Source of the DNA: Brumimicrobium oceani
GTDB taxonomy: Bacteria > Bacteroidota > Bacteroidia > Flavobacteriales_D > Crocinitomicaceae
DNA: 64,000 bases
Reading direction: 5' to 3'
NCBI RefSeq assembly: GCF_003143775.1
Contig: NZ_QFRJ01000007.1
Span: 1-64,000, forward strand
Shown here: positions 16,278 to 45,540 of the stretch, one piece after another
Layout of the letters: every line of letters starts with the position of its first letter
Position numbering within the stretch: position 1 is the first letter of the stretch
Notes under the pieces: generated by a model
Databases searched by the model: none
Seen by the model: the letters and a program-made list of their open reading frames with translations, nothing else
What the model was told of the DNA's origin: nothing
Translations under genes and position numbers: made by a program

Positions 16278-16495
16278 TTCAAAAATTGACGCCCTGGCTG
16301 TTGTAAAGTAGTTTTTTCTATCTTTTTTTGAAAATTTCCCAGAACCTTCTGCAATGTTGAGAGTTACGCTAAATGAAGCTCGTCCCAATTGATCATTAGC
16401 GTAGCGGTCAAAGTTAATATCGAGAATTAAATCTTTACAGGAAGATTGAAATTGTTTCGCTTTTTATAAACGATTAGCTTTTGAAAATCAAACAT
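16278..16495 (-). pseudogene. Truncated, frameshifted four-helix-bundle protein gene
   Basis: From ATG 16495 the minus strand reads MFDFQKLIVYKK; a 1-nt deletion near 16460 breaks the frame, after which it continues QFQSSCKDLILDINFDRYAN, DQLGRASFSVTLNIAEGSGK and FSKKDRKNYFTTARASIFE. The SFSVTLNIAEGSGKFS block and the following ARxSxFE are diagnostic of the four-helix-bundle family (23S rRNA IVP/Avd relatives, TIGR02436). The last helix is replaced by the IS1595 remnant at about 16277. This is the third member of the family in the window and the only broken one. Confidence 0.75.
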
Positions 16496-16593
16496 GATAT
16501 CTAGATTCTAAGTGGTTTATTCTTATGAAGATAAGGATTCTTTTTAAAAGAGAGATTCAATATTGTGGGTTTCTTTGGGGTGAAAGGCTTTTT

Positions 16594-16669
16594 CAGAGTG
16601 AGAAAGAGAGTGGGTGCAGAAATAAAAAACCAGAGGATAAACTTCGCTTTCGCTCTGTTTCTCACTCTG
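16594..16669. repeat. Inverted GAGTGAGAAA iterons upstream of the four-helix remnant
   Basis: CAGAGTGAGAAAGAGAGTG (16594-16612) is inverted as CGCTCTGTTTCTCACTCTG (16651-16669) with two mismatches. Further half-copies GAGTGAGG and CAGAGTG follow to about 16725. It lies about 100 nt upstream of the four-helix remnant, the same head-to-head layout seen beside the two intact family members. The rest of 16496-16788 holds no gene. Confidence 0.55.
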
Positions 16670-16788
16670 TGTAATCGGTGCTGGTTTTATGGAGTGAGGT
16701 ACAAAAGAAAAAAGCAGAGTGCAATGAGCCCGCTGAGTAAATATTGTAAAACCAAAAATGGCAACTGATTTCTCAATTGCCATTTTAA

Positions 16789-16864
16789 TGGTAGCGGGGA
16801 CAGGACTCGAACCTATGACCTTCGGGTTATGAGCCCGACGAGCTACCAACTGCTCCACCCCGCA
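16789..16864 (-). tRNA. Initiator tRNA-fMet (CAT anticodon)
   Basis: The 76-nt cloverleaf on the minus strand reads TGCGGGG at the acceptor, D-arm GGAGCAGTTGGTAGCTC, anticodon stem-loop TCGGG-CTCATAA-CCCGA, T-arm ATAGG-TTCGAGT-CCTGT, and encoded ACCA. Two features mark it as initiator: the mismatched 1-72 pair (T-T) and three G-C pairs closing the anticodon stem. It is the only tRNA in the window. Confidence 0.95.
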
Positions 16865-16932
16865 ATATATCTTTGTGTAATTTTATCTAATTCGATGCGC
16901 TTGCGTTACGCTTTCCGTATTCAAACGGATTG

Positions 16933-16961
16933 CAAAGATACGGACATTTAATTGATTTCAA
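16933..16961 (-). promoter_or_regulatory. Promoter of tRNA-fMet
   Basis: On the minus strand TTG (16959-16961), an 18-nt spacer and TATCTTTG (16933-16940) match the Bacteroidota -33/-7 consensus. It predicts a start about 60 nt before the mature tRNA 5' end. Confidence 0.6.
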
Positions 16962-17033
16962 AATGTTTTAGTGAAATAATTTGACAATAAATCACAAAGA
17001 CCTATACATTAAGTCTTTAAGAACAACCTATTT

Positions 17034-18515
17034 CTATTGAATTTTCCATGTTGCACCCTCTTTATCGTCTTTTATGACAATTTTCGCTTCATTCAATTTA
17101 TCTCGAATGGCATCCGCTGTTGTCCAATCTTTGTTTTCTCTGGCTTGTTGTCGCATTTGAAGCACCAATTCCATCACTGTTTCCAGACTTTCATTGTTCC
17201 CTTCCTGCTCTTCTGAAAGTTCAGCTAAGCCCAAAATGTCAAATACAAATGCATTCAATTCCTTTGTTAATCTTTCTTTGTCAGTTGCAGAAATAGTTGC
17301 TTTTCCTGAATTTACAGCTTGAATATATTTCGCTGCATCAAATAAATGAGCTACTAAAACTGGTGTATTAAAATCATCATTCATCGCGGTGTAGAACTTC
17401 TGAATTAAAGCTTCAACATCAATGGATGATTTTTCACTGGTTTTAATTTCTTTTAAAACTTGTATTGCTTCCATTAAACGAAGGAAGCCTTTTTCTGAGG
17501 AGTTTAAAGCTTCTGCGCTAAAATCTAAAACACTCGCATAATGTGCTTGCATCATAAAGAAACGCACAACAATTGGGTGATACGCTCTTCCTAAAACCTC
17601 GTTGTTTCCTGAGAATAATTCTTCTGGAAGCAAAGTGTTTCCTGTTGATTTACTCATTTTCTTTCCGTTCAAGGTCAACATGTTAGCATGCATCCAATAA
17701 TTTACAGGCTTTTCTCCCGTGGCTGCTGTTCCTTGTGCGATTTCACATTCATGATGTGGGAATTTTAAGTCCATTCCTCCTCCATGAATATCAAATTTTT
17801 CTCCCAAATATTTGGTGCTCATTGCAGAACATTCCAAGTGCCAACCCGGAAATCCTAAGCCCCAAGGCGAAGGCCACTTCATGATGTGTTCTGGTTTGGC
17901 ATTTTTCCATAAAGCGAAATCAAGCGGAGACTTTTTCTCTTCTTGTCCATCGAGTGAACGTGTTCCAGCGACTAAATCTTCGATTCTGCGTTTTGAAAGT
18001 TCACCGTAATTATTGCTCTCATTATATTTTTCAACATCAAAGTAAACTGAACCATTGGCTTCGTAAGCAAATCCATTATCAATGATGTCTAAAATCATTT
18101 CGATTTGTTCTATAATATGCCCCGTAGCAGTTGGTTCTATGCTTGGTGGTAGATTATTAAATTGTTGCAATACTTTATGAAAATCTAAAGTATAACGCTG
18201 AACGATTTCCATGGGTTCCAATTGTTCCAATCTTGCTTTTTTTGCAATTTTATCTTCTCCTTCCTCCGCATCATTTTCAAGATGTCCAGCGTCAGTAATA
18301 TTTCTTACGTAGCGTACTTTATAGCCTAAGTGCATTAAATAGCGATAAATAACATCAAAAGAAATAAAGGTACGACAGTTTCCCAAGTGAACATCACTGT
18401 AAACAGTTGGTCCACAAACGTAAAGTCCAACAAATCCATCTAGGATGGATGTGAATACTTCTTTTTCTCCAGTTAAACTGTTGTTTATTTTGAGTTCGTT
18501 TTCTTTATATAGCAT
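17034..18515 (-). CDS. cysS: Cysteinyl-tRNA synthetase
   Basis: The 493-residue class I enzyme charges tRNA-Cys. The zinc-site Cys34 ([10 protein letters not shown]) precedes the HIGH-type motif HLGN (43-46). Further zinc ligands follow in GWHLECS and HHECEIAQG, and the KMSKS loop is KKMSKSTGN (about 287-295). The C-terminal DALR-like helical domain (about 340-493) closes the protein. Length is normal (about 490). The gene is single and ends about 170 nt from the tRNA. Confidence 0.96.
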
Positions 18516-44868: not shown

Positions 44869-44892
44869 ATATGTAAAAATTTGATTTGAAAT

Positions 44893-44900
44893 CAAAGATA
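44893..44900 (-). promoter_or_regulatory. -7 element of polA
   Basis: The minus strand reads TATCTTTG, 24 nt before the ATG at 44868. No TTG was found at -33. Confidence 0.4.
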
Positions 44901-44923
44901 GCTTTTTTAATGGGAAAATTTTT

Positions 44924-45087
44924 AATTACGAATGGGATCAATTACGAATTACGAATTTGGAAGAGGGCAAATGGAAATTAACATAAAAAAAAATGAATTA
45001 TTATATCTATTTATGTATCTTAATTGGAAATATCTGAAAATTATGAGTACAACAATTCGTAATTCGTAATTGAAAATTTCGTAATTT
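44924..45087. repeat. Head-to-head ATTCGTAATT iterons, left of four-helix gene
   Basis: AATTACGAATGGGATCAATT and ACGAATTACGAATTT on the left (44924-44958) face ACAATTCGTAATTCGTAATT and GAAAATTTCGTAATT on the right (45051-45087). The spacer holds a short AT-rich stretch. The right half ends 18 nt before the gene's ATG. Confidence 0.7.
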
Positions 45088-45105
45088 TTTAAAAACCTAA
45101 ATCAC

Positions 45106-45456
45106 ATGAAAGAAAACGTTATTCAAGTAAAGAGCTATGCTTTTTCATTAAAAATCATCCAAGCATTCAAATTTCTGCAATACGAGAAAAAGGAGTATGT
45201 TTTAAGTAAACAAATCCTGCGTTCGGGCACATCAATTGGAGCGAATGTAGAGGAAGCTATCGGTGGTCAATCTAGAAAAGACTTCTTCGCTAAATTGACA
45301 ATTTCGTATAAAGAAGCAAGAGAAACTAAATATTGGGTTCGGCTTTTAAGAGACTCTCATTATTTGCCCATTGAACTAAGTAGAGATTTATTAAAAGATG
45401 TTGATGAAATTCTAAGAATAATTGGAAGCATTCAAAAAACCATGAGAAGCAGTTAG
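45106..45456 (+). CDS. Four-helix-bundle protein (23S rRNA IVP/Avd-like), second copy
   Basis: The 116-residue protein shows the TIGR02436 pattern: SYAFSLKIIQAFKFLQYEKK (helix 1), ILRSGTSIGANVEEAIGGQS (hallmark loop), FFAKLTISYKEARETKYWV (helix 3) and a basic C-terminal helix. It is only distantly related to the copy at 19.8 kb: the hallmark there is AAYSIPSNISEG. Both flanks carry ATTCGTAATT head-to-head arrays (44924-45087 and 45459-45540), a different repeat from that of the other copy. Confidence 0.88.
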   Translation: MKENVIQVKSYAFSLKIIQAFKFLQYEKKEYVLSKQILRSGTSIGANVEEAIGGQSRKDFFAKLTISYKEARETKYWVRLLRDSHYLPIELSRDLLKDVDEILRIIGSIQKTMRSS

Positions 45457-45458
45457 AT

Positions 45459-45540
45459 AATTACGAATTGAATCAAATACGAATTACGAATTTTTACGAT
45501 GCGCAGCAATTCGTAATTCGTAATTAAAAAATTCGTAATT
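45459..45540. repeat. Head-to-head ATTCGTAATT iterons, right of four-helix gene
   Basis: AATTACGAATTGAATCAAAT and ACGAATTACGAATTT (to about 45495) face CAATTCGTAATTCGTAATT and AAAAAATTCGTAATT. It starts 2 nt after the stop codon. It mirrors the left array closely, including the ATCAA spacer between the first two units. Confidence 0.72.

Follow-up and report, generated by a model that had tools for sequence, protein, structure and literature searches.

In a 64,000-nucleotide stretch of Brumimicrobium oceani (contig NZ_QFRJ01000007.1, positions 1 to 64,000 of the forward strand; this whole stretch is the window below), we examined two orphan genes, P0001 and P0002, which encode four-helix-bundle proteins of the IVP/S23 type (PF05635 family). 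Each gene lies between arrays of short inverted repeats with a motif of its own, and within the clade of P0002 the motif follows the protein. Our results suggest a protein-and-repeat system that has so far gone unrecognised. An orphan IVP/S23-type protein probably recognises the array flanking its own gene, and protein and array would together form a co-evolving unit with dispersed copies.

Profile searches place both proteins above the curated cut-offs of PF05635 (33.8 bits) and TIGR02436 (24 bits). P0001 matches PF05635 with 122.3-122.8 bits over 19866-20177 (minus strand) and TIGR02436 with 114.7 bits, and P0002 matches them with 89.1-89.8 bits over 45115-45426 (plus strand) and 103.5 bits, respectively. 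Homologues of solved structure, found by sequence, are 2GSC for P0001 (E 2.6e-18) and 2RLD for P0002 (E 4.9e-38; alignment A1), with five chains apiece. The original prediction had placed three loci of the family here, of which two hold intact genes, while the third (L004) is a decayed remnant with a PF05635 match of 39.3 bits over 16278-16409; this match spans profile positions 28-71 of 106, and the stretch is not open throughout in frame 1. The 3.85-Mb genome contains two further PF05635 matches outside the window, an intact orphan (L002) and a weak one (L005). The genes and their arrays are listed here, with R an inward-facing heptamer arm and rcR its inverse.

16278-16495, minus strand: decayed four-helix-bundle gene (L004)
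16596-16612 and 16651-16667: inverted repeat GAGTGAGAAAGAGAGTG, a single pair on one side of the remnant only
19691-19825: 3'-side array of P0001, GCNNTAN heptamers on the plus strand (19691-19741), then on the minus strand (19747-19825)
19833-20189, minus strand: P0001, intact four-helix-bundle gene, cognate motif GCNNTAN
20302-20373: 5'-side array of P0001, heptamers on the plus strand (20302-20338), then on the minus strand (20337-20373)
about 44924-45086: upstream unit of P0002, R arm AATTACGAAT-N6-AATTACGAATTACGAATT, spacer, rcR arm AATTCGTAATTCGTAATT plus ATTTCGTAATT
45106-45456, plus strand: P0002, intact four-helix-bundle (IVP/S23-type) gene, cognate motif ATTACGA(AT)
45459-45542: downstream unit of P0002, R arm, short loop, rcR arm, by sequence and DNA fold the architecture of a gene-less unit
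contig C1, 113928-114233: L002, intact orphan PF05635 gene with its own motif

All three intact orphans carry arrays on both sides, with three different motifs: GCNNTAN at P0001, ATTACGA at P0002 (in the form AATTACGAAT...ATTCGTAATT) and an 8-nt AGTTNTCA unit at L002. The P0001 arrays consist of head-to-head units with a 7-nt period, and the P0002 upstream unit contains exact pattern matches at 44940-44956 (minus strand) and 45055-45071 (plus strand). A repeat unit that differs from locus to locus had been correctly foreseen for P0001 and P0002, yet these units are heptamers, not the 8-10-mers first described, and the inverted arrays expected at every locus flank P0001 and P0002 on both sides but are reduced to one inverted pair on one side at the remnant. 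When folded as single-stranded DNA and compared with shuffles, the P0002 units gave z scores of -4.6 (45458-45550) and -3.2 (44920-45069), and two gene-less units elsewhere in the genome reached -8.1 (L206) and -6.6 (L209). At gathering score, Rfam held no family for the arrays, its sole match in the window being a tRNA.

The candidate third array at the remnant, GAGTGAGAAA, was rejected. No 8-mer is in excess in the L004 flanks (5 vs a shuffle maximum of 8), GAGTGAGAAAGAGAGTG forms a lone inverted pair (2 found vs 0.11 expected), and its 10-mer matches elsewhere in the genome look scattered.

The link between motif and protein was examined in a pooled set of 194 distinct loci, leaving out L003, L096, L004, L005 and duplicates; a locus was counted as carrying the motif if it had at least two AATTACGAATT matches within 150 nt, one mismatch being allowed, so that AATTANGAATT variants count. 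The ATTACGAATT-type motif is present at 71/85 loci encoding a protein with 55% or more identity to P0002 (46/54 at 60% or more, 25/31 at 55-60%), at 6/14 loci at 50-55%, and at 0/95 loci below 50%, ten of which have one match; in shuffled flanks the count is about 0. Thirty-five of the 45 site clusters with a member at least 55% identical carry it. So do 66 of the named loci, which are the best 80 of at least 572 and therefore over-represent close homologues; among them are Bacteroidota, Chlorobiota, KSB1, Pirellulaceae, candidate-phyla bacteria, Verrucomicrobiota and Pseudanabaena. Among the matches listed, the named protein closest to P0002 belongs to Brumimicrobium salinarum, and its flanking sequence is the same as that of the locus in G317, a genome of the window's genus.

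A mirror (Mantel) test of motif similarity against protein similarity within the P0002 clade, in which pairs with homologous neighbours were dropped to exclude shared neighbourhoods, yielded a rho of 0.458, reached in 0/1000 permutations (102 loci, 5068 different-site pairs). With all 7-mers, the near flanks gave a rho of 0.428 (0/300 permutations), while control DNA 600-750 nt away gave 0.092, a value reached by 15/300 permutations. For P0001, the other genomes of the 399 searched hold just one homologue at E<=1e-30, from another genus (70% identity over 79 aa), and the single flank available for this homologue has the CCTAAAGCCTACCGCC array too. The co-evolution of protein and repeat put forward in the original prediction is supported by these sequence comparisons, with one replicate in a second clade.

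We also characterized the flanks of the wider family for periodicity, using 10 mononucleotide shuffles per flank. This test replaced a crude 8-mer copy-excess test, in which 51/97 had exceeded the maximum of 12 shuffles. A family-wide search of 100 genomes provided 95 loci, or 93 after leaving out L004 and L005 (30 returned, 60 picked from the upper part of the ranked list and this genome's 3 intact genes; same-site relatives are included). In this sample 120/185 flanks are periodic, 67 of them with a lag of 7 or 8, and 81/93 loci have at least one periodic flank. By comparison, only 23/339 intergenic segments from 400 kb of the window's genome passed, 5 with a lag of 7 or 8, two of which are themselves ATTACGA arrays (Fisher p 2e-46 for periodicity and 1e-28 for lag 7 or 8). 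A larger set behaved alike, with 259/383 flanks periodic and lags of 7 in 154, 8 in 16, 14/15 in 51 and 21/22 in 16. Irrespective of the motif, a lag of 7 or a multiple of 7 predominates. Away from the genes, 8/44 window segments passed with lags of 14-22, two of them being the gene-less arrays listed below. The upstream flank of L005 passed as well, with a lag of 8, so this locus is no clean negative for periodicity.

The two flanks of a gene are also complementary to each other. Among 96 genes, a set that includes L004, L005 and second genes or duplicates, complementarity between upstream and downstream flank reached a score of 14 or more in 55% of same-gene pairs vs 3.2% of pairs from different genes, and the outer arms at 57/96 loci, both window genes among them, lie above the 95th percentile of cross-locus pairs. 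Upstream arms have G > C in 92/124 cases and G < C in 16; outside the P0002 clade the ratio is 54 to 1, of 59. Stop codons show no excess in the arms overall (8.9 per 100 nt vs 9.0 shuffled), and outside the P0002 clade they number 9.5 vs 8.2. Of 195 loci, 20 lay at contig edges or too far from a neighbour; with crude open reading frame (ORF) calls, the IVP gene runs in the same sense as both neighbours in 141/175, opposite to both in 12 and mixed in 22, the comparison values for ORF triples of the window being 12 and 16 of 50. This bias makes it probable that the arrays are transcribed and suggests that transcription matters, yet a G-U bias is absent from the arms.

Copies of the motifs are dispersed through the genome. 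Exact ATTCGTAATTCGTAATT occurs 29 times vs 0 for the reversed pattern, and 74 vs 13 times with up to 2 mismatches; the P0001 motif gives 51 matches vs 3 for the control, and the L002 motif 20 vs 2. Besides the P0002 locus, the exact sites occupy 16 places, and they often form pairs, minus strand first and plus strand second, separated by tens to a few hundred bases. In the 20 stretches read, both arms stand in the order R...rcR in 13 (L206-L216, L220, L223), and a single arm is found in 7. Within L206-L216, 9/11 R arms have a spacing of 15 (or 16) then 7, and 6/11 rcR arms the mirrored 7 then 15. In this genome a further, third decamer is found at 14-16 nt on the outer side of the pair in 19/29 cases vs 6/29 on the inner side, and in relatives in 16/30 vs 7/30, while identity in the 5-nt gap is 0.32 here and 0.51 in relatives. 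By crude ORF calls, the unit sits in an intergenic gap in 16/17 stretches (L206-L222), and in L221 it overlaps an ORF. The loops at window positions 45493-45508 and in L216 look alike. Three such copies lie in the window itself.

20410-20426, plus strand: half-unit ATTCGTAATTCGTAATT, an exact match to the P0002-type motif beside the P0001 locus
58173-58213, plus strand: gene-less half array of the P0001 motif, GCGGTAGGCTTTAAGCTGTATGC...
60983-61084: gene-less array resembling the L002 motif, TTTTCAAGTTTTCAAGTT ... AACTTGCCCACTTTAAAACTT

One gene-less stretch differs in content: at L213:903-1526, a 207-aa ORF lies between the R and rcR arms as if it were cargo, and it has no Pfam match.

Across 399 genomes of the order, the P0002-type pattern is found in 41, and its abundance tracks the gene. 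Five or more copies occur in 24 genomes with a P0002 homologue (E<=1e-20) vs 3 without one, and 305 genomes have neither the gene nor five copies (p 5e-14); the link also appears within two other genera (g10, p 0.0015; g17, p 0.0003). The original prediction had regarded genome-wide iterons without enrichment beside four-helix genes as a sign of chance. The iterons are indeed genome-wide, yet they are largely inverted gene-less units whose abundance follows the gene across genomes, as in REPIN-RAYT.

Inspection by eye of ten genomes from the window's genus showed single sites in alternative states. At the HgmA site, this genome has the full gene, G006 a same-motif solo unit and G078 a solo unit with another motif; G056 is without that motif and has other repeats, the site is rearranged in G067 and G317, and G027, G086, G043 and G094 have the same neighbours with no element. 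At the polA site, where the genomes have only the polA side in common and a different neighbour on the other, this genome has the gene, G056 a solo unit, G006, G027 and G317 traces, and five genomes nothing. The neighbour of the solo unit L288 is found in 6/10 genomes: G317 and G027 have a full P0002-type gene there (77-78% identical), G006 and G056 have remnants, and G067 has none of the motif. Because the states differ at all three sites, gene and unit stand at different sites in sister species, a pattern that both gene movement and reciprocal loss would fit. In G027, a second, truncated P0002-type copy (L292) follows the first with a same-kind array between them, and looks like a tandem duplication.

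How such a unit might work can be outlined as follows. In its full form the gene stands between two array units, and its gene-less form is a single intergenic unit of R, spacer and rcR. The protein would bind an arm as a pentameric ring, with about one heptamer per subunit, and this binding would maintain, and at some rate spread, units bearing the protein's motif. Cutting and copying would fall to host enzymes, in the way that a REPIN population relies on its RAYT. A ring of five would fit the five chains of 2RLD and 2GSC and the toroidal homopentamer reported for S23p of Xanthomonas campestris (PMC4990558). We infer binding, the ratio of one heptamer per subunit and movement of the units, and the same applies to the original suggestion that the protein acts on, or spreads with, its repeat. 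TRAP, an 11-mer ring protein, reads evenly spaced short RNA repeats (triplets). It could illustrate how each subunit of the IVP ring would take up one heptamer, as proposed here; it differs in the size of its ring and of its repeats and has no homology to IVP proteins.

Several observations weigh against this explanation. At 14/85 loci with at least 55% identity to P0002, fewer than two motif matches are present, and the second-clade replicate at P0001 is a single locus. Across the whole family, the mirror test finds no covariation (rho -0.05, reached by 465/500; 3777 different-site pairs), and similarity rises only in 28 pairs at 60-80% identity. We thus restrict the covariation claim to within-clade comparison, where the mirror-tree check of the original prediction held, and the flat family-wide result makes the heptamer code appear to change fast between clades. 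L002 and some other loci have units of 8 nt instead of 7. The P0001 arrays, folded as DNA, are not clearly better than shuffles (z -1.8 and -0.6). Mismatches in the outer arms are not biased towards G-U on the sense strand (39 loci vs 44); RNA-level pairing, sought through this asymmetry, gave no signal, and nothing in the arms therefore favours it. The spacers of the gene-less units (14 to about 700 nt, unaligned) look unrelated by eye, whereas copies of a MITE share their interior; the units are thus probably not simple copies of a single element. By eye, intergenic sequence is also highly diverged between species. Profile scans of P0001 and P0002 matched only four-helix-bundle type families and no catalytic domain; the scan for a Y1 transposase covered these two proteins and was not extended to the remaining genome. 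Fewer than five copies are present in 67/91 homologue-bearing genomes, while G010, G056 and G103 have five or more with no homologue at E<=1e-20. Within the window's genus, gene and copy number are not significantly linked (p 0.22), owing to G067 and G056, which carry copies but no close gene, and to G078, where it is the other way round. The arrays flanking the gene in G317 and G027 are direct, not inverted, and no clean insertion junction was seen in the sites compared.

Alternatively, the protein could be a stationary regulator that binds its own arrays and dispersed sites and controls transcription, termination or mRNA stability, in a TRAP-like or nucleoid-protein-like manner, with sites coming and going by mutation and no transposition. 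The intergenic position of 16/17 units agrees with this, as do the sense bias of the IVP genes (141/175 vs 12), which would have the arrays transcribed, and an arm geometry that tends to persist like a binding site under selection. Moreover, 4/20 units from relatives have a flanking protein in common with this genome's units, although site sharing is indecisive either way since the comparison covered only about 13% of this genome. Such a regulator would have to be squared with a motif found in many phyla beside unrelated genes and with a gene that occupies different sites in sister species, and we judge it unlikely, if well worth keeping in view. We can all but set aside the idea that there is no functional link, the arrays being products of slippage that travel along with the gene, or marks of insertion-prone places. 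Array length does differ among relatives and many matches are same-site relatives (409 pairs), but at protein identities of 55% and above the motif recurs in 35/45 site clusters and across many phyla, far flanks reach a rho of only 0.09, the period is mostly 7 nt with differing motifs, and genome-wide copy number tracks the gene.

A selfish RNA element resembling the 23S rRNA intervening sequence (IVS), placed outside rRNA, would insert in transcribed gaps and be removed from the transcript by RNase III, its gene-less units being recombination leftovers like solo long terminal repeats. The protein family is common to both, the outer arms are complementary at 57/96 loci, the IVP genes have their sense bias, and one site is a full gene in some species and solo in others. 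In Coxiella, the IVS has inverted ends of 28 bp, and direct repeats of the heptamer GACAGAT immediately precede the start codon of S23 (PMC4990558). Yet the arms have no sense-strand G-U bias, and 13/20 stretches that have two arms but no gene, vs one clade gene in the genome, would demand many insertions and loss nearly everywhere. In this genome, furthermore, exact heptamers are kept while the intervening gaps differ, unlike relics. We regard this origin as quite improbable. Between the rRNA IVS and the units described here, the likeness lies in the PF05635 protein, the complementary ends around the gene and, in Coxiella, the heptamers before the ORF; window genes differ in lying outside rRNA, with arrays on both sides and dispersed gene-less copies. 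The same source, as far as its text is available, interprets changes before and within the Coxiella S23 ORF as reductive evolution and draws no link between the heptamers and binding by the S23 protein (PMC4990558).

The closest parallel to a co-evolving protein and array may be REPIN-RAYT, in which RAYT is a Y1 transposase and the repeats are 16-mer REP palindromes (PMC3116915). In both systems one gene stands next to a repeat flavour of its own, genes within a single genome differ in their flavour, inverted pairs that form hairpins are dispersed through extragenic DNA, and gene and repeat appear to co-evolve. They differ in that the IVP protein is a four-helix bundle, P0001 and P0002 having no match to a Y1 (HUH) tyrosine transposase, and in that the IVP repeats are degenerate heptamer arrays with seemingly unrelated spacers instead of 16-mer REP palindromes. 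The IVP system may thus work like REPIN-RAYT without its defining enzyme, and if its units move, it would be a REPIN-like system based on a non-catalytic ring protein. With Avd of diversity-generating retroelements the fold family is common, and P0001 and P0002 have weak DivGenRetAVD and bAvd scores below cut-off; unlike there, the scanned neighbours of the two genes (polA, a homogentisate-dioxygenase-like gene and an epimerase) are not reverse transcriptases, template and variable repeats not having been searched for. By comparison, L005 (G000:C34:4226-7531) is such a retroelement, in which bAvd (78 bits) and an RVT_1 reverse transcriptase are accompanied upstream by an Lcl_C-domain gene; its PF05635 match is weak (25 bits), and it stands outside the set of loci with inverted arms. 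A literature search, with subscription papers largely outside its reach, turned up no account in which IVP genes are paired with repeats of their own, and the listed papers on short-tandem-repeat (STRR) sequences in cyanobacteria showed no link to IVP arrays.

Since the Coxiella IVS has heptamers before its S23 gene, the link between heptamer and protein may be family-wide. A bolder reading, which we offer tentatively and are inclined to doubt, takes IVP/S23 proteins as sequence-specific readers of heptamers, one per pentamer subunit, with clade codes carried along across phyla; rRNA IVSs, orphan genes and gene-less units would then be one ancient class of element that spreads without a transposase of its own, perhaps via RNA, with reverse transcriptase provided in trans as for Avd in diversity-generating retroelements. 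A clade-specific heptamer code provides each protein with a ligand that can be tested, and could account for the heptamers of rRNA IVSs and for many low-complexity arrays, so far unexplained, in Bacteroidota and other phyla.

Additional features were observed beside these. A tRNA gene (16792-16864, minus strand) adjoins the decayed IVP locus. The gap before a gene starting MNITEISIKRPS, which we take to be of efflux type, holds IVP genes or solo units with differing motifs in several genomes (L216, L281, L045, L103, L164) and would be either a recurrent or a very old site. Sequence around CGCGTCATCCGCGTTCCATTACAGCGC, close to the heptamer units, is found at window 58380-58420 and in L230, in two species. 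Window 52408-52510 and G000:C1:146682 contain a repeat of 21-nt period that includes GGCGCAATG and has no adjoining IVP gene, and a long 16-nt tandem array (CAAAAACCGTTTCAAA) lies at about 367600-368100 of G000:C1 (L260).

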